DNA from: Opeltia flavorubescens
Lineage: Eukaryota > Ascomycota > Lecanoromycetes > Teloschistales > Teloschistaceae
Assembly (NCBI GenBank): GCA_000442125.1
Contig: KE546970.1
Span: 1,836,328-1,900,327, forward strand
Direction of reading: 5' to 3'
DNA length: 64,000 bases
Part shown: piece by piece, positions 1 to 45,000 of the stretch
Numbering within the stretch: the first letter of the stretch is position 1
Layout of the letters: every line of letters starts with the position of its first letter
Notes under the pieces: generated by a model
Seen by the model: only the letters and a program-made list of their open reading frames with translations
Databases searched by the model: none
What the model was told of the DNA's origin: nothing
Position numbers and translations under genes: made by a program

Positions 1-1652
1 GCATCGATACAGAAGATATCCATGATGCTTGCATCATCCTCAACAACTTAGCTACGGAAGGTCCAGAAGACCCGAAACTTCAGAGGAGGCTCCATACACT
101 CGCTCAACTGACACTATGCAAAGATTGGCATCAGGACCAGAGGTGGCAGGTAGTGCAAAATTGGACGGCTGTCGTACAGGAGTGGATGAATGAGAAGGGG
201 GAGGTCTTGGTACTCCAGAAAGAGGCTCAAGCACGCCAGAAGAAGATAAGCCAATTGGGGACCCGTCTCGAGGAACAAGACCAGGAATTGAAAACCTCAA
301 GGTCAACATGCGCGCATCAAAGACTATTGCGATACGCAATGGAAGATAAGTTCTCGGAAACAACTAAGCGCCTGAACACAAAGTGCCAAGAGTATGAGGA
401 GCTTCAAGCTCAGGTTACAGAGAGCAAAGAATTTGGCAGCCAGATGGAGGCAAAATGGAAGTCTGCCCAGAAAATGGTGGAAGTAGCCAACCGTCGACTA
501 ACAGAGTCAGCGGAGGAAGCAGAAACCTACGCGAACGATCTTCAAATTATCATTGACCGAGGCGCCAAAGAGATTCAAGACCTTCGAAAAGAACTCGAAA
601 ATGCGCAAATCAAGGCGGAGGAAGAATCGAGTGGAAAATGGGAGGCCTGGGACCTGGAGCGAATCGAGCAACAGCAGGAGCTGGAAAAGTTACAAAAGGA
701 TCTTATCGCTAAGGAGGCAGTCCTTAAGATGACGAATGATGAGCTGCAAAAAAAAGTCGCGCAACGGAAATTGGATAGCGAGCAAGCGATCGGAAAACTG
801 CAAATTCTTGATTTTCAAATTCGTCGTTTGCGTGCCGAAGGAGACGAATCTGCCAAAAGAGCAACGAATCAACAACGGCGGCTGCAACGTCACATTAAGA
901 GTTTGCAACATGAAGTACAGAAAAGAAAAGAAGAGAATCAGAACCTAGAAAATGACGTCGAGACCTTGCGGATAGAGCACTCCAATTCGACTCACGAATT
1001 CCAGCAATCCCTTGACGCTTCCACTGCGCAGATTGACCGACTGAAGACAGAAACCCGTGAAGCAAAAAATCGGGAGGAGGCACTGCAACAGGATATCAAA
1101 CAGCTGCAGACACAATTTGACACTGTTCTCGCAGACTCCAAGGCCGAAGGAGAGCTTTTGCAAGCAGAATTCCTGACCCTACAAGTGGAACTCTCCAAAG
1201 CCAGACATGGGTTGGATGAATCTACAACCCAAACCAAATTCCTGCAATCTCAACTCGAACACACCAAGGATGAATTTTTGAAAGCCCAGGATGACCAACG
1301 GAAGACGGTCGAGCATCTAGAGTCCGTCCTAGAGGTGGAAGAAAAGAAAAGCCAAGGACTTGCTTGCGACGTCGAGCGCATATCACGCGAGAAAGAGAGT
1401 CTGGCAGATGATGTTGAGGAAATCAAGGTGAGTAGTTTATTTGCCGCTCCATGTGATCATGGGGATTGGTGGTGGATACAGGCTAACAAGATGCATTCAC
1501 AGCGTCGTCTGAACGAGTTAAACCCCTCTGGTCTTGAGAGAGGATGGTTGCTCTTGCTGAGTCTGCAGCCTTGGAAGATTACATTTCGGAGCCTGAAAGA
1601 TTTTGAAACTGGAAAATCCTGTCAAGTGGAAGATGCGGCCCAGCAAGTATAG
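1..1652 (+). CDS. Coiled-coil protein, 5' end outside the window
   Basis: The frame is open from base 3 to the TAG at 1650-1652, so the true start lies upstream. The first ATG-like codon near 153 is a GTG and is not a credible eukaryotic start. Residues from about 60 onward are almost continuously Glu/Lys/Gln/Leu-rich with heptad-like spacing, predicting a long parallel coiled coil of the kind found in tethering, cytoskeletal or spindle proteins; no specific family is recognisable. A candidate intron lies at 1428-1502 (GTGAGT donor, CTAAC branch, CACAG acceptor; 75 nt, in frame, so the open frame also reads through it). After it the coiled-coil character stops, and a different frame gives a more natural but stop-interrupted tail, so the 3' end is uncertain. 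No enzyme motif is visible. Confidence 0.65.
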   Translation, partial: IDTEDIHDACIILNNLATEGPEDPKLQRRLHTLAQLTLCKDWHQDQRWQVVQNWTAVVQEWMNEKGEVLVLQKEAQARQKKISQLGTRLEEQDQELKTSRSTCAHQRLLRYAMEDKFSETTKRLNTKCQEYEELQAQVTESKEFGSQMEAKWKSAQKMVEVANRRLTESAEEAETYANDLQIIIDRGAKEIQDLRKELENAQIKAEEESSGKWEAWDLERIEQQQELEKLQKDLIAKEAVLKMTNDELQKKVAQRKLDSEQAIGKLQILDFQIRRLRAEGDESAKRATNQQRRLQRHIKSLQHEVQKRKEENQNLENDVETLRIEHSNSTHEFQQSLDASTAQIDRLKTETREAKNREEALQQDIKQLQTQFDTVLADSKAEGELLQAEFLTLQVELSKARHGLDESTTQTKFLQSQLEHTKDEFLKAQDDQRKTVEHLESVLEVEEKKSQGLACDVERISREKESLADDVEEIKVSSLFAAPCDHGDWWWIQANKMHSQRRLNELNPSGLERGWLLLLSLQPWKITFRSLKDFETGKSCQVEDAAQQV

Positions 1653-3078
1653 CAGATGTGTGCTGATGGACCCAGCAATTGGTAAAGACATCAAGTTTTA
1701 TAGCGCGTTTTTAAGTCATCTCTTGTGCTCTGTATTTATATGGGCAGGGTTATTGCGTCAATGAAGGAAAAACTCGAATCGAAATTTTGAATCACCCTCT
1801 ACTATCATCAATGAGAGCGTCGTAGTCCTCGTTCAGGAGCAGAATGAAAAGGGGGATGTCTAGATCCTTGTCTCAGGATCTGAAGAATCGAACTGCCCAT
1901 GACCATTCTTTCAGTTGTGATAGGTGTCAAATTGTAAATCTATCAAACGATTCAGGCGTTTGTTTACCCGGCTGACTCTTTTGGTCAAGGTGTGGAACTG
2001 TGACATTACAGAAAATATTGATCGAGCGTTATTAGTACATTTATAAGCTGTCAAGTCCTGTATATGAAACGCGACTGTCTTCCTTGCCAATGGATTTAGC
2101 AAGGTTATAGCAATTTCTCTTCGATCTATCACGATTGAGATTGGCAATAGTAGGATTACATAAAGTTGGAGGAACTATTGGATACAGGATGGCAAGAATG
2201 TTTGATCTTGGTAAAGAGTCGTGCAATCCTATTTTGGTGTATCCTCGCGATTGTTGAAGGCTCGAAATCATCGATACAAACCTCCCTACTCGGACTTTAG
2301 TGTCATGGAGCCATCCAGTGCATACGCTTGGCCGGAAACATTGATGTTTTCCGCTTTTTTTTCCAGCGCTGAAGTATGTTGCTCAAAGAAATTATCCTGG
2401 ACCTTTGATCGTTATAGAATGCAGTCACCCAAAAAGGGCATTAATGACTGAATGGGTGTAAAATTTGGAAATGTGTCCATTATAAGAATGTATACAGATC
2501 CCAACTAACTCCCTGTAGACTGATCAATCGCTGCAATACATTCGTCAGGGTCTTATATACGAGATTTAACTTGGTTGTTGTATGACAAACGTTGTGGCCT
2601 CGCAAATGATCGGTGACTAGGGTTCCCTGAATGAATTCAACGTGAACCACCAATTTAGCTCAGCCTCGGTATTGGAAATGCGGTTGTGGCGCGCTCCAAA
2701 AGTCTCTTTTCGGTGGCTTCTCGCTTGGCTAGCCCAATTTCGGACCAGCGGTGTGCCACGGCTGTCCCCTTTTGTCAAGCATCATAACGGTCTCTTTTGT
2801 AGACCAGAAAATCTTTTCCAGAAAACTCCTCGACCAATGATAGAGTGCACACGTGTACCATTACTGTCAAGGATCCCTAGAAATCATGGAGTGGACGTCC
2901 TCTGGGCTAGAGTATTTGAAGCAGCTCACGCGCCGTTACCTCTGGATACTTTTCGACCCCAGTGGAGAGCATAGCGCCTTCAGCGTTCGCGGTTCCTACT
3001 CCGTTAACCTCGAACATTCAGTCGTCCCGTACACAACTGTCCTGATATCACAGCAATTCCGGGACTCGCTACACCAAG
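1653..3078. other. Intergenic, no supported gene
   Basis: Short open frames occur here (for example 2642-2974 and 2853-3116, +) but none has a signal peptide, domain, credible introns or coding-like composition. The last few hundred bases presumably contain the promoter of the secreted protein that starts at 3079. I see no tRNA, rRNA or repeat structure. Confidence 0.5.
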
Positions 3079-14612: not shown

Positions 14613-16222
14613 CTAAGCTGCATGTTCAATTTGTCGATTTGATTTGGAGGAGAAGGTAACAGGCATCCTGGTCACAACGCTTGAAGGACGAACGACGAGA
14701 AATACAGCTATACACACAGGTACTGCCACAACGAAGTATATCCAAAAAAGCCTTCCTCCAGGCGCAAAATTCCCGGCCATACTAAACAGACTCGATATGA
14801 ACGTCAGGGGAACAAATACGAGAGCCAGATACGTTAGTCGTTTGATATTCGCTGTTTCCATGAGCGAACGCCGACTGTCTACGATCTGAATAAGAGAGGC
14901 GACAATAGAAACCGTGAGCTCAATCCTATGATTGTATACATCAATACAAGATAAGATATGTTCATAGTCCTTGATCAACGATGCGTTAGACTCGGCACCG
15001 TCGACTTCCGGACTTCGTTCCTTGAGGAAGGTTATGACGTAGCGGATCTTGTGGGATGTTCCCATATTCTGGCGGGACCACCGTTGCAGGGCATACAGGT
15101 CTGCATTGAGGATCGATATTTGCTCTAATTCTTCGGGGAACGAGTCAGGCCGATATTCATATTTCTTGACCAAACGATGAACGACCTCCAGATATATCAT
15201 CCATTCCGCCGCAATCACTTTCAGTGGATAGTATGCGACGGAAAATAGTGACGGACACTCTACGCTGAAACCTGGAGGCCACTCTCGAGCTAGGTAAAAG
15301 GCTATGTTTTCAAGAAGAGAATTTGGACCGAGCTGAGTTTCGGGTTCGTCGATATCATGGAACGATGGGCCGGAACGAAAGTCTTCTAGTCCACCCTGGA
15401 AGAGCCGAGACTGGATTGAAATCCTACAACGTTTGTCATCATCCACTTGCCTGAGTAAGTATGTGTCGTTTATAGGTGGATCAAGGAGGATAATTCCTAG
15501 CGCACTGTTAGCTTCCACCCGAAATCAGATCACATCAACCGACCAAGCCAGAGCCCATCTTTGGTTGACGAAAGCAATATGGTGCAGCAATGCCGAGCTA
15601 ACCTGATGTCTGCACCACGAGTCCCCGGAGCGGCGACGTGTCGGGGGACGTTCATGTCGCGGCGCAATTTGCCAGTCACTCCAGGACAATCAAATACAAT
15701 GCTGCGATAGTACTGAAGAGAGATGAAGTTTTGGGACTTTGCCAGCGATGGTAGAGTGGTCCTGTAAGGCCTCCTCGTTGCTGTGTCCGACTGCGGGACA
15801 TCTATATGCGTTGCGAAGAAGAAAGGATCAATATTGAGTGCTGATCCAAGAATCTCAATGATATCCGGGCATAAGTCTTCGACTAGCAAAATTCGGCCAC
15901 GAAGCTCGCGAGAGCTGTCGTTATTGAGCTTGCCGTGGAGCAACCCTTTCAGAGTCTTGGTGTCCAGATCCTGAAGATTCGAACGCCCAGGTGCCGAGGA
16001 AATGTCCAGACAGGCAAGTCGACAAGAGTCAATTGTAAAATTCGAATGATTGAGGAATTGCGACAAATGATGGAGTGACGGGTTTCGGTGCGCCCTGGCC
16101 GTTACGTAAGCGCTGTAAGACCTTTTGGGCTCTTCAACGCGCTGAAGTGTCATCGTAGATAGCGAATGCTTCAATACAGGTTTGCAAGATTGCCTTGACG
16201 TGATGCCATGGCGATGTGTCAT
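14613..16222 (-). CDS. CorA-like (Mg2+ transporter superfamily) membrane protein
   Basis: Two exons: 16,222-15,603 and 15,504-14,613 (intron of 98 nt, GTTAGC donor, AACAG acceptor, phase conserved), giving about 503 residues from the ATG at 16,222; ATGs at 16,153 or 16,453 are alternatives. The N-terminal half carries the fungal CorA-like signature: a segment reading GRILLVEDLCPDIIEILG followed by NIDPFFFATHI, later a patch around LQYYRSIVF. The C-terminal half has a long helical region (heptad-like, SLIQIVDSRRSLMETANIKRL) leading to two transmembrane helices, TYLALVFVPLTFISSLFSM and LFWIYFVVAVPVCIAVFLVV. The GMN loop that defines true Mg2+ channels is absent (the loop reads SMAGNFAPGG), so transport of Mg2+ should not be assumed. 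This degenerate CorA-like class is common in filamentous ascomycetes. Confidence 0.75.
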
Positions 16223-16458
16223 CGACCGGGATGATTCAATTCTGGGCTCGCAGGCAGGAAAACGGTTGAGGATTTCGAGGTTCAGACAGCTCACTTGAGA
16301 GTGAATATCGAGAACCCCGCTCCGCCTTACAAATATTGACAACGCAATATACTCTACCAATCCAATTGCAACATCCGAGCAGGCAGAAGTTGAGGATCCA
16401 GCCTCGCGAGCTATACGAATACGCTTTCGATTGTGCGCTACCCTGCATGCCACCTGAC

Positions 16459-16704
16459 TTAGTGCGCGAAGTTGGTGTAGTGGGGTTTAAGGCTTAGTTT
16501 TTCGAGGTGAGGTGACTGGTTTATATGAAGGGTACGTTCCTTCCTATTGCCAGTGATCTTAAGGCCAAGGATCTTCCTCATCTCCCCCGGGTCCTTGACT
16601 TTGAAGATTATCTGGAACTCTTTCTTGAAACATTGAATTGTTCGTGACGCAGATCCGACATCATCAACGTACAGCAGAAGAATCATGCAGCGATCACTGT
16701 TCAT
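16459..16704 (-). mobile_element. Ty1/copia reverse transcriptase fragment
   Basis: An 81-residue fragment contains the copia-type RT signature LLLYVDDVG followed by FKKEF..IFKVKDPGEM.KILG and the downstream R.LHINQSPHLEKL segment. Only this middle piece of RT is present; no protease, integrase, RNase H or LTR is nearby. It is therefore a relic, lying between the CorA-like and UstYa genes. Unlike the repeats beyond 22 kb it keeps normal base composition, so it escaped heavy RIP, perhaps because it is too short. Confidence 0.8.
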
Positions 16705-16896: not shown

Positions 16897-17906
16897 CTAG
16901 ATCTCGTCGGCCCTAGTGATTTGAGGGTAGAAATCCGGCAAGTCCTTCTCCATATGATTCTTAAACCAAACCTTGACGACATCAGCGTAACCGGTTTCCT
17001 TGGTGCAGAATTTGAATCGCTCATGCTGGTCCAAATCCTTTGCATGTTCACTGAGATAGCGGTAGCATGCTGTCAGGTGCGGCTGCGCTGCCCACTCGGA
17101 GAGCTTGGCCCAGCTTCGGCACATACGCGTTTGCGTGGGAAGATCCTTTTGGTCCGGGAAGGAAGTGTAATGGGGTGTATCATCAGCACTGCAGATAATC
17201 GCATCGCGAACTGCGTCGAGACAGTGAGTAATATGACTGAGCTCGTACGTCTGGTTTCTGCCGAGATTCCATTCAGTTATACTCATATGAATACTTTTCT
17301 GTGCGCTATCAGTATCGATATATTGAATCATGCCCTGTCGATAGTAACTTACTAGGCAGTGGAGATCATGAAAGCCGCTCACGTAGAATATAGACTTGTT
17401 TTCATCCCAGGGGAAGCGCCCCGAGATAGTTGGGAGACCTTCTTTCTTGACGAATTCATCGGTCAAAGCAAGCATTCCGGTGTCGATGTCGATACTTGTT
17501 TCCCATAGCTTGCTTGCTTCTTCTAGATTGGTGCTCGAGTAAGGCGACTTCTTCAAGTAGGGTCGTGGGGTATCCCGAGATAATTTGGCTAGAATCATGA
17601 GCTTTGGGTCTCGACTTCGAGGGTTGACTCACCCCAATGAGAAACATCCGACGGTGAAGACATCCAAAGCACCGTCACGATGACAATCAAGACGATGTTC
17701 AGAGAAGCGGAAGCCAAAATGAATCCTTTTGGCCCGGCGCCAAAGTCTCGCGGGTGAAGCCATCTCAAGGCAGGCGGTTTGCCGCTCAACATACTCTTCT
17801 CTTCTTCACAGTCATCTTCAGGTAGGAGCCGACTGTAGCTCTTGCTACCTTGGTAGGGGAAGACCATCTTTCCTGAGATCAGATTTGAAAGAGTAACACT
17901 CAGCAT
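16897..17906 (-). CDS. UstYa-family (DUF3328) protein of a putative RiPP cluster
   Basis: Three exons: 17,906-17,633, 17,588-17,353 and 17,298-16,897 (introns of 44 and 54 nt, GTGAGT and GTAAGT donors, phases 1 and 0), 303 residues; the ATG at 17,867 is an alternative start. The layout is that of UstYa-type proteins: a short cytosolic N-terminus, one transmembrane helix (about 61-82) and a lumenal domain with two HxxHC motifs, HDLHC at 165-169 and HITHC at 192-196. The second continues into LDAVRDAIICSADDT, the typical family extension. Family members with both motifs are known to carry out oxidative macrocyclisation of Kex2-released peptides in ustiloxin, phomopsin and asperipin pathways. 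It lies about 1.1 kb downstream of, and on the same strand as, the repeat precursor gene. Both motifs are intact, so it looks functional. Confidence 0.88.
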
Positions 17907-18979: not shown

Positions 18980-19400
18980 CTAGTAGACGCCCACAACTGA
19001 GGTGTCGTCCGCCACACGTTTGTACACACCGACCACTAGCCAGTCAAGTCAGTAAGCTTACCACATGCTCTGGGGAATCATTTTGGAACCTTCGGCATCG
19101 ACAGTCTCGCGTTTGTAGATAGCGGGCACTGGACCGCGGGAGTCAGCTTCGTACACCTTCTCGAACCCAATGTACGTAGCTGACCTGAGGAATCAATGGG
19201 CTCGCGCTTGTAGACACCAACCACTGAGGCATACGAGTTAGCGATAGATCTATGTTCAAGTACATGGACGGCAAACCTTGAACATCGGCAGGCTCACGCT
19301 TGTTGACGCTTACGGCAGATTTCGTGAAAATGTTGGGGAGCGGACCGGCAAGGGACAAGCCGGTGAAACCGATGAAGGCGACGAGGAAGGATGAACGCAT
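18980..19400 (-). CDS. Kex2-processed repeat RiPP precursor (dikaritin-like), exon-per-repeat
   Basis: Four exons: 19,400-19,277, 19,223-19,185, 19,128-19,090 and 19,035-18,980. The three introns (53, 56 and 54 nt) begin GT, contain CTAAC/CTGAC branch sites, end CAG/CAG/TAG and are all phase 1. The spliced product has 85 residues. Residues 1-18 are a signal peptide. Lys-Arg pairs occur at 34-35, 47-48, 60-61 and 73-74, exactly every 13 residues. Each of the last three is preceded by a five-residue Tyr-ending core: VVGVY (42-46), VPAIY (55-59), VVGVY (68-72). A final VVGVY (81-85) ends the protein without KR. Spacers are acidic (EPAD, EPID, ETVD, VADD). Signal peptide plus KR-separated repeats with Tyr cores is the hallmark of fungal dikaritin/KexRiPP precursors matured in the secretory pathway. 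The two middle exons are both 39 nt and code one repeat each. Without splicing the repeats are invisible. Product chemistry and activity are unknown. Confidence 0.85.
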
Positions 19401-21479: not shown

Positions 21480-22080
21480 TTTCTTCCGAAAGGGAATATT
21501 ACTAACCTCGCGTTTTGAATAATACCAACACGGTTCGATCTCGGTTAGATCAGGTGAGTTGCTAGGCCAAGGAAGCACGGTCAACCCCGGTATACCTTGG
21601 AGCTCTTTTTGGTGCCGGGTATAGTGTGCGCCGGCGCCATCTTGTACCAGGTAGGCCTCACCGTACTCGTCGATAATCTGACAAATGAATGGAATGAGTA
21701 GAGGCTTTGAGACGCACGTTTGGTAGCGATACCAATCGATCCATCCTTTGAGGTTCTTACCCCTTTCCTGTTTGCGTACTATTGTCTTATTTGGACGCTT
21801 CCGCTGACGATTAGTGATTGGTTGATCTGGTCCAATTCCTCCCTCCTGATTTGTTGTTCCACCTCATATAGACGATTACAGTCGTCTAGATTCTTTTTAG
21901 CGGCCTCCACTTCATCCTGAGTCTCCTTGTCGAAGATATAACATGGCCCCCAGCGATATCGGTGTCGTACATGTCGGTGTTATTGACGGCGAATAGGATC
22001 TTCCCCTGCTTGACCCTTTCTCCCCATTTTGGCGGTATTGATAGTGGATGGCTAGAGACGCGACCCGATGAGGGAGCGGC
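21480..22080 (-). mobile_element. Tc1/mariner-type transposase relic
   Basis: Reading the minus strand, three frames joined by small frameshifts give recognisable transposase. The segment near 21,660-21,520 is the best: LVQDGAGAHYTRH (second catalytic Asp of the DDE/D triad) followed by LTVLPWPSNSPDLTEIEPCW, the hallmark third-acid region of the IS630/Tc1/mariner superfamily. Upstream, 21,730-21,930 encodes a Lys/Glu-rich helical linker (KETQDEVEAAKKNLDD...), and 22,080-21,970 gives WGERVKQGKILFAVNNTD before a frameshift. Stops occur near 21,807 and elsewhere, so it is dead. Terminal inverted repeats were not found. It abuts the start of the AT-rich compartment, whose first 50 bases or so still have normal composition. 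Confidence 0.75.
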
Positions 22081-42036: not shown

Positions 42037-45000
42037 AAGAAAATAGTAATAATAAAAAAAATAATATTAATAAAAAAGATAATAATAATAAAAAAAAAAT
42101 AACTTTTCCTTTTATATATAATTTTTTTTATTACCTCCGAGTTATTATTAATAATAGAGTTTATATTATTAAAAATAATAGAGCCGCTTTTTTTTCCTTT
42201 ATAAAAAAAAAAAAATTCGAATAAAAATATAAATTTAATAAGCTTTAAATAATTAAAAAAAATTTTAATAATAATAATAAATTTTTTAATAATAATATTA
42301 AAAAGTTTAAAGACGATAATAAAAAATTAAAAAAAAAGGAATAGAAAAAATAGGAAGCGTAGGAAGCGTAAAAAGCGTAGAAAAAATAAAAAAAATAGAA
42401 AAAGCAGAAAAAATAGAAAAAATAGAAAAAACCCGTAGGCTAATATTTAAAAAAAGATATAAAGTTTATAATTTTACTATAATATTAAAATCCACGTGTA
42501 TAATATATTCTAAATTTTTTTTTTAATTTTTAAAAATATTATATTCTAAATAATAGATTTATATAAAAAATAAAAACTATTTATTATTATAATAAATTCG
42601 TTTCTATATTTATTATTTTTATTTAGTTTAATTTTTTCTAGAGTAATTAATATACTCTAGCGATAGTTTTTTAATTTTAGCTTAAAAGTAGAATTCTATT
42701 AATTTATTATTTTATTAAAATAAATCGAAATAATAATAATTTCTTTTTTTTTTATTTATAAAAGGATTTTAAAAATATAAAAATATATATAATAACTTTT
42801 ATAAAATATATTAGAAAGAATTACTAGCCGGGTAAAAGATATTACCCGTTTTAAATTATATTTAATTCGAAGTAAAATATTTTTATTATATATTTAGGAT
42901 AAATATTTGGATTTAATAATAATAAAATATTAATAGTTTTATTATTTATATTATTATTTTAATTATTTATAGATTTATTTTTATATTTAATTATATCCCG
43001 CTTTATTTAAAAACTATTATATAAAACTAAAGAGTTAAAATTAAAAATCTAGAATTAAATTTATATATATAATTTTATATTAGATATAATATTAGAAATA
43101 GAAGTAAAAAATATTTTATATATATTTTTTTCTTTAAACTGCCGGTATTAAAAAAAACTATATATATATTATAAAAGAAGTTAGAGAAAAACCGCTACTA
43201 TTTTATTAAAAAATAATAAATATTATAAATTAATTAAATTATCCGCCCCGCTTTAAATATTATTTATAATAATAAAATTTTATAATATTATCCCGTTTCT
43301 TATATAAATACCTATAATAAAACTAATATAAATAAAGGAAAATTAATAGACGTTTTTTATTCTATTTCGATTTATTATTTTATATTATTTTAATAAAAAA
43401 TTACGCGTTTTATTAAAATAATACCGGGTATAAATAACCGACTTTAATTATTATTAGTTACNGCTTAAAATTTAAACTCGAGATATATAATAATTATTTA
43501 GTTATTATACGCGAGAACTTTTTTTATTATTTAAACGAGCTTTTTAATACGTTAAAATATATTTTATTTCTATATAAAATATATATAAGTTTCGGTTTTA
43601 ATAAGTAATTTATTAATAATAAACTATATAGTATTATTTTATTAAATAAAATATATTATCTAGATAATTAAAAGGAGATTTTTATTTATCCTATTTCGTC
43701 TATTAAATATATTTATATAGACTCCTTCCCGTTTTAATTAATACGAGATATAGTTTTTATATTTATATATCTAAATAGGTAAAACGACTTCCGGATATAT
43801 AACGAGTTAATAGATAATAAATTATATAATATTATTTTTAACGCTTTCGTTTTCCCGGTTAAAAACGGTTTTTTAATTAATAAAAATTACTATAAAGTTT
43901 TAAATTATAGTTAAAATAAAATTAATTATTAATAAAAAATCTATATTAAAGGTCTAAATATTTTTTATAATTTTAATAGCGAGTATAAGCTATTTTGAGC
44001 TCGAAATAGATTATATATATTAAATAGGTTAATATTAGAGAAGTAGTATTAGATTTCAATTATAATTTATAGCTTTTAAAAGTTAATTATTAAAGTTTTA
44101 TAAAATTTTATAATATATTATAAATATTATATTAGTTTTATAATATTCGTTAACCTTTTATTAGAAATTTAAAATAAACTCGCCGATTTATAGCTTTTAC
44201 GCTCTATTATACCTATAAAAAGCCCGATATTATTAGTTAATAACTTCTATTATATCGATATTTTTAATATTAATTCTAATAATATAGCCTTTAATATTTA
44301 TTATCGCTTTTAGATCTTTAATACTATAAAAATAATAAAATTTATAAATATTTAATTTAATTAATAGTTTTTTTTTTTAAAAACTTTAATTATTTAAATA
44401 AAAGCTGCTTTAAAATTAAAAGTTATTTTTTTTAAATAATAAAGCTTTAATAGCGTAGCCGTTTTTATTTTTATATATTTTATTTGCTTTATTTTTAAAG
44501 GAATTAAGTTTATTTAATTTTTTATTTTATAATTATTTTAATAAAAGCTATAGTAGCGAATATAGGCTAGATTTAAAAACGAACCGCGCTATAAATTTAA
44601 ATACCGGACTATTTAATAGTTTATCGGGGTAGTTTCGTTTTTTTATAATAAATTTTTTTAGAAGGGTCTTCTTTATATAAAGTCCGGTGCTTTTTATACT
44701 TTTTATTTTATTAATACTTTTTAGCGACGGTTTAAAATCTACCGCGATATTATTAAATATTTTATCTATTATAATTATATTTTCGTTTAATTACAAATCG
44801 ATTTTTTTAAAATTAAAAATACTTTTTTAATACCCGGCTTTAAAGAATATAATTTCGCTATTTTTAAAATTCTAAAAAACGCTATTAAAATAATAATTTG
44901 TATTTATATTTAATATATATAAAAAATTCTTGCGAATTATATTATATAACGTTTTTCTCGCGAGAAGGCTATAAAAAAGTATCGATAATTTCTATATTTT

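Follow-up and report, generated by a model that had tools for sequence, protein, structure and literature searches.

A probable KexRiPP-type locus of a lichen-forming fungus, with an UstYa gene beside a KR-repeat precursor modelled with introns in its cores

We identified, in a 64,000-nucleotide stretch of DNA (hereafter the window), what is very probably a KexRiPP-type locus with two genes, belonging to a lichen-forming fungus. In this reading, the product of the first gene would be a precursor cut by Kex2 and Kex1, and the UstYa enzyme encoded by the second would cross-link its tyrosines. The source fungus is probably a member of the Teloschistaceae. The precursor cores, VVGVY and VPAIY, and the layout of one intron per core are new relative to the literature surveyed, precursors described only in subscription journals (including gigA) aside. 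An earlier note on this DNA, made from the sequence alone, had described the precursor without giving its strand, which is the minus strand, and did not mention the UstYa neighbour, which is the strongest support for a RiPP locus. The locus offers a concrete precursor-enzyme pair and the genome four more candidates, so that assignments of core to product become testable.

Structure of the precursor gene

Table 1. Features of the precursor gene, its UstYa neighbour and candidate sibling frames at other UstYa loci (positions of the siblings are those within the named locus)
Feature	Position	Strand	Remarks
KR-repeat precursor gene, ATG to stop	18980..19400	-	85 aa once spliced; ATG starts at 19400, stop codon ends at 18980
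Exon 1: signal-peptide-like start, pro-region, first KR, first spacer	19277..19400	-	signal peptide by eye
Intron 1, 53 nt, phase 1, GT-AG, donor GTTTGC	19224..19276	-	branch site CTAAC 18 nt before 3' end
Exon 2, 39 nt, symmetric phase 1-1: core VVGVY, KR, spacer	19185..19223	-	spliced model
Intron 2, 56 nt, phase 1, GT-AG, donor GTCAGC	19129..19184	-	branch site CTGAC; alternative donor 19175
Exon 3, 39 nt, symmetric phase 1-1: core VPAIY, KR, spacer	19090..19128	-	spliced model
Intron 3, 54 nt, phase 1, GT-AG, weak donor GTTCCA	19036..19089	-	branch site CTGAC
Exon 4: core VVGVY, KR, spacer, C-terminal core VVGVY, stop	18980..19035	-	last core without preceding intron
UstYa (PF11807/DUF3328) gene, 290 aa, HDLHC and HITHC	16897..17867	-	exons 17867-17633, 17588-17353, 17298-16897
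Candidate sibling L023	8036-8500	+	eleven PEPGVGF-type cores
Candidate sibling L028	723-792	-	Trp-ended repeats
Candidate sibling L014	1755-2043	+	24-residue repeats
Candidate sibling L012 (C17)	1852-2014	+	27-residue repeats with di-His

The splice model (Table 1) reproduces what the earlier note had proposed, namely three GT-AG phase-1 introns, four exons, 85 residues and Lys-Arg (KR) pairs in a 13-residue register. In all three introns a CTAAC or CTGAC begins 17-18 nt before the intron end. Each intron splits the codon of the Val that opens a core, and every core but the last has its own exon boundary at its start. The KR pairs start at residues 34, 47, 60 and 73, a spacing of exactly 13. 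The units that follow them are EPADVQ-VVGVY, EPIDSS-VPAIY, ETVDAE-VVGVY and VADDTS-VVGVY, in which the same four cores appear as had been reported before, and the protein terminates with the last of them. The N-terminus, MRSSFLVAFIGFTGLSLAG, looks signal-peptide-like when judged by eye. The GC content at the gene is normal, and the four exons contain neither stop codons nor frameshifts.

The repeat had also been said to become visible only after splicing, and the arrangement of the exons agrees with this: all three genomic frames are used, one by exon 1, a second by exon 2 and the remaining one by exons 3 and 4, while intron 3, which preserves the frame, nevertheless carries in-frame stops. 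Introns within each repeat are one possible route by which annotation loses such precursors, and the earlier expectation that automatic gene callers would overlook this gene is plausible. Because exons 2 and 3 are each 39 nt long with phase 1-1, skipping either would remove exactly one 13-residue unit and keep the frame. It is conceivable but rather unlikely that alternative splicing tunes how many cores are made and in what proportion VVGVY and VPAIY occur, which would make the gene a combinatorial RiPP precursor. If so, the introns would also interrupt a tandem DNA repeat that is prone to slippage. Duplication of a whole exon-intron unit is not supported, as the similarity between intron pairs did not exceed that of shuffled sequences (the score was reached in fractions of 0.26, 0.89 and 0.14 of the shuffles).

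Introns in each core look unusual. No description of introns in each repeat of such precursors was found in the literature, of which the coverage was thin for subscription journals. Introns are not mentioned in the accessible part of PMC6339444, and the word 'intron' is absent from the main text of PMC7329392 on KEPs, whereas the window precursor is modelled with an intron in three of its four cores. The 'intron-less' sequences of mushroom KEP genes were amplified from cDNA, according to the portion of PMC9769878 available, which indicates that some KEP genes have introns.

Splice models, codon changes and controls against chance

Splice models were enumerated from the ATG at 19400 with GT-AG introns of 40-110 nt, a YTRAY branch site and at most four introns. 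All four KR pairs were kept in 10 of the 907 models. Every one of these 10 contains introns 1 and 3 as modelled, and what varies is whether intron 2 starts at 19184 or 19175 and whether a further 3' intron is added. The donor at 19175 leads to a protein of 88 residues in which the exact 13-residue register is lost. The three donors (GTTTGC, GTCAGC and GTTCCA) do not come close to the GTRWGT donor consensus, and that of intron 3 is the weakest. A GTAAGC inside intron 3 looks stronger, but its use would leave a 26-nt intron and a frame shift.

The copies of the repeat differ from each other in a manner expected of coding sequence. Among VVGVY copies 1, 3 and 4 with their KR codons, all six variable columns are third codon positions, a pattern with P 1.3e-4 if variable columns were random over the 21. 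Because the VVGVY and KR copies vary only at third positions, this comparison of the repeats argues that the modelled frames are translated.

These codon changes also bear on the explanation that KR codons and splice-like signals fell into this order by chance, which we consider exceedingly improbable. GT and AG are common, and a length of 501 nt holds 66 candidate introns. Furthermore, the KR detector used here (at least three KR sites with similar upstream pentapeptides, by which other repeats could be missed) produces false positives. Three groups were detected in the window, namely the precursor, a Lys/Arg-rich stretch at 42354-42372 (plus strand) and a group at 219-783 (plus strand), of which the latter two were taken as chance. 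When the detector was applied to the surroundings (up to about 9-10 kb) of the genome's 14 other UstYa places, 26 loci in all, a group at L015, which is AT-rich with stops in its context, was dropped as chance, and Lys/Arg-rich stretches of L028 also triggered it. Reversed sequence gave a group at 2 of the 26 loci (L033 and the true repeat locus L014). In contrast, none of 260 Markov-resampled 10-kb loci had a group; the window locus was left out of this control and of the reversed one. Base shuffles of the 26 loci, each shuffled twice, yielded no groups.

A spaced pattern of Tyr-Lys-Arg codons likewise speaks against chance. In the whole genome, pairs of TACAARCGY 70-100 nt apart have four exact matches, compared with one in the backwards control, and they occur at two places only (two in the window precursor and two at C17:19.4-19.6k), both of which adjoin an UstYa gene. 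The Trp version of the pattern has one genome match, at C6:1719514, which is not beside an UstYa gene, and none in the control.

It is also possible, but distinctly improbable, that the precursor has recently decayed and that the repeat is a relic whose splicing or expression has been lost, an explanation compatible with a past function of the kind proposed here. The weak donors fit such decay, as do the RIP-mutated block, about 2.8 kb away and reaching the contig end, and the lack of the precursor protein in the database searched, although that search was blind to the intronless sibling L023 as well. However, the exons are intact, the changes in the cores are confined to third positions and the GC content is normal. 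Moreover, the UstYa gene is intact and probably transcribed.

The UstYa neighbour, the rest of the locus and a proposed pathway

Past the stop codon of the precursor, the first gene recognised on that strand is the UstYa gene, which follows after about 1.1 kb and contains both HXXHC motifs. Its spliced product of 290 aa is identical to the database protein P0001, which matches PF11807 with 68.7 bits (cut-off 25). P0001 lacks the 18 residues that retention of the in-frame intron 2 would add (308 aa), and its source label 'lgn' presumably stands for Logan. Since P0001 is intron-free and its longest contig is 1,177 nt, it appears to derive from mRNA, and on these grounds the UstYa gene is probably transcribed. 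Relatives of the UstYa protein were found in Calogaya, Squamulea and Gallowayella (71, 69 and 63% identity), which are orange lichen fungi of the Teloschistaceae; it is from these names that the source fungus is placed in that family. A second relative in Gallowayella is 66% identical over half the length, and distant matches of 31-33% identity include Xanthomendoza and Rutstroemia. Comparison with solved structures gave no credible match (the best, E 0.44, was an unrelated synthase).

Pfam scans around the precursor covered 1-24.6 kb of the plus strand and 1-22.6 kb of the minus strand, in which short exons could be missed. They recognised the UstYa gene, a CorA-like Mg2+ transporter, a piece of a DDE_3 transposase and one sub-threshold RVT_2. 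The CorA-like match, the only transporter-like one near the precursor, lies in the second of two open frames at 14613-16486 (minus strand), which follow the UstYa gene on its strand at a distance of about 400 bp; to our knowledge, this type is not an exporter familiar from such RiPP clusters. The transposase piece, at 21485-21728 (minus strand), scored 28.7 bits against a Pfam cut-off of 28.6 and is near the edge of an AT-rich block. This 42-kb block (22200-64000) has a GC content of about 4-27% per kb and terminates, together with the contig, in TTAGGG telomere repeats. Its RIP indices were extreme, at 1.17 for TA/AT (0.69 in the genic part) and 0.16 for (CA+TG)/(AC+GT) (1.29 in the genic part). 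Its boundary is sharp, at about 22.15 kb, and the precursor is about 2.8 kb away. A similarly low GC content in Cladonia has been attributed to RIP, as stated in the accessible text of PMC12542154.

No methyltransferase and no second UstYa gene were recognised in these scans of the locus, the other UstYa gene of the contig being 0.9 Mb off, and Pfam recognised no reductase near the precursor. Tyrosinase is likewise absent from the neighbourhood; of its only genome matches, at C6:859,892 and C3:1.64 Mb, the nearest is about 1 Mb off on the contig of the window and the other is on a different contig. The S41 peptidase has no genome match at E 1e-3. With neither a tyrosinase nearby nor an S41 peptidase in the genome, release of the product would need other enzymes. 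A Kex2-type P_proprotein match was detected at C3:1456047, with one stop within the matched frame.

We infer in vivo splicing, cleavage and cyclisation of the precursor, as well as the boundaries of its mature cores. The precursor would enter the secretory pathway through its putative signal peptide. Kex2 would cleave after every Lys-Arg and a Kex1-type carboxypeptidase would trim the KR, which would leave four 11-mers, each composed of an acidic spacer and a Tyr-ended core (VVGVY three times and VPAIY once). The neighbouring UstYa oxidase may then cross-link the Tyr to another residue, after which the spacer is probably removed. This pathway is suggested by the adjoining UstYa gene, by the Tyr at the end of each core and by the association of DUF3328 genes with KEP genes and with Tyr in the repeats that PMC7329392 reports. 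The cores VVGVY and VPAIY named in the earlier note are present, but to regard them as the final cores is a further assumption, since Kex2/Kex1 trimming gives 11-mers.

An alternative is that the gene encodes the precursor of a mating pheromone, or a secreted peptide that Kex2 processes and that stays unmodified, and that the UstYa enzyme serves something else. A signal peptide followed by KR-separated repeats is the general plan of KEPs, and DUF3328 genes were found near only 22% of them (Umemura 2020, PMC7329392, from the accessible text). Nevertheless, this alternative is unlikely, because the first gene recognised after the precursor on its own strand is UstYa and the repeat is Tyr-ended. 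According to the same portion of PMC7329392, counts of DUF3328 genes peak next to KEP precursor genes, Tyr-containing repeats are more frequent with a DUF3328 gene nearby than without (65.6 and 38.2%), and almost all mating-factor KEPs, with three exceptions, have no DUF3328 neighbour. In addition, nothing resembling the MF_alpha core exceeded the cut-off in the genome; the single match (contig C7, E 0.81) was below it, with a 13-position model of low power.

Known systems and repeat frames at other UstYa loci

Taken as a Kex2-processed RiPP-type precursor, the gene has similar units between its Kex2 dibasic sites. It shares KR-separated near-identical repeats, a Tyr core and an adjoining DUF3328 gene with the KEPs that have a DUF3328 neighbour in PMC7329392, as far as its accessible text describes them, and its signal-peptide-like start would correspond to their signal peptide. 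As in the ustiloxin and phomopsin clusters, a KR-repeat precursor is combined with an UstYa-type oxidase, but unlike in those clusters the window locus has no tyrosinase or methyltransferase recognised nearby and the genome no S41 match. The core of asperipin-2a differs from the window cores in sequence and length, and its clusters carry accessory genes. The window locus departs from this type in having no reductase recognised by Pfam and only the CorA-like match as a possible transporter. Asperipin-2a clusters contain a single UstYa gene, as stated in the available part of PMC7329392, the same count as here.

Whether the locus belongs to the dikaritins depends on the definition. In the broad sense it does, because an HXXHC-bearing DUF3328/UstYa gene is close to the precursor. 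We do not call it a dikaritin in the five-gene sense of Ding, as quoted in the accessible portion of PMC12048977, because neither a tyrosinase nor a methyltransferase nor multiple DUF3328 genes were recognised there. The earlier assignment as a RiPP-type KR-repeat precursor is therefore upheld by the UstYa gene nearby, and that as a dikaritin only in the broad sense.

The repeats of GigA are 27 residues long, compared with 13 in the window precursor. The epichloecyclin precursor GigA has a signal peptide, to compare with the signal-peptide-like start here, and resembles the window locus in its repeats bounded by kexin sites and in the UstYA-like cyclase of its cluster (PMC8982410, accessible part). 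In lichens, the RiPP clans R1 and R2 (PMC12048977) have an UstYa-type signature gene in Lecanoromycetes, as here, but the part of that survey available describes no conserved-repeat precursor in its two clans, whereas the window locus has one. The intron-split layout might partly explain why the survey reported none.

Of 11 candidates sharing words with the precursor protein, none was a relative at E up to 1, and the intronless L023 control likewise had none among 5,467. The empty search is uninformative because this sibling also returned nothing. Against its own genome, the precursor gave three matches, all inside the window. Pfam assigned the protein to no family at E up to 1, and an NCBIfam match was rejected as chance (12 bits against a cut-off of 2000).

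A search of the 34.4-Mb assembly for UstYa gave 19 matches, which were merged to 15 places, one of them in the window. After K/R/E-rich peptides were filtered out, KR groups remained at 5 of the 26 loci around the other places, and four were kept as plausible. We regard these four sibling frames (Table 1) as candidate RiPP precursors of the same fungus. In L023 and L028, a Met with a signal-peptide-like stretch is in frame, an aromatic residue precedes the KR and a core forms the C-terminus, as in the window precursor. L014 and L012 have no clear signal peptide in the repeat frame, and the repeat length of L012 is that of GigA. None of the four has introns in its repeats, and the window gene is the only intron-split one detected. 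Of the 15 UstYa places, ten are in the terminal 100 kb of a contig; with both ends of the 23 contigs counted, such terminal zones make up about 13% of the assembly.
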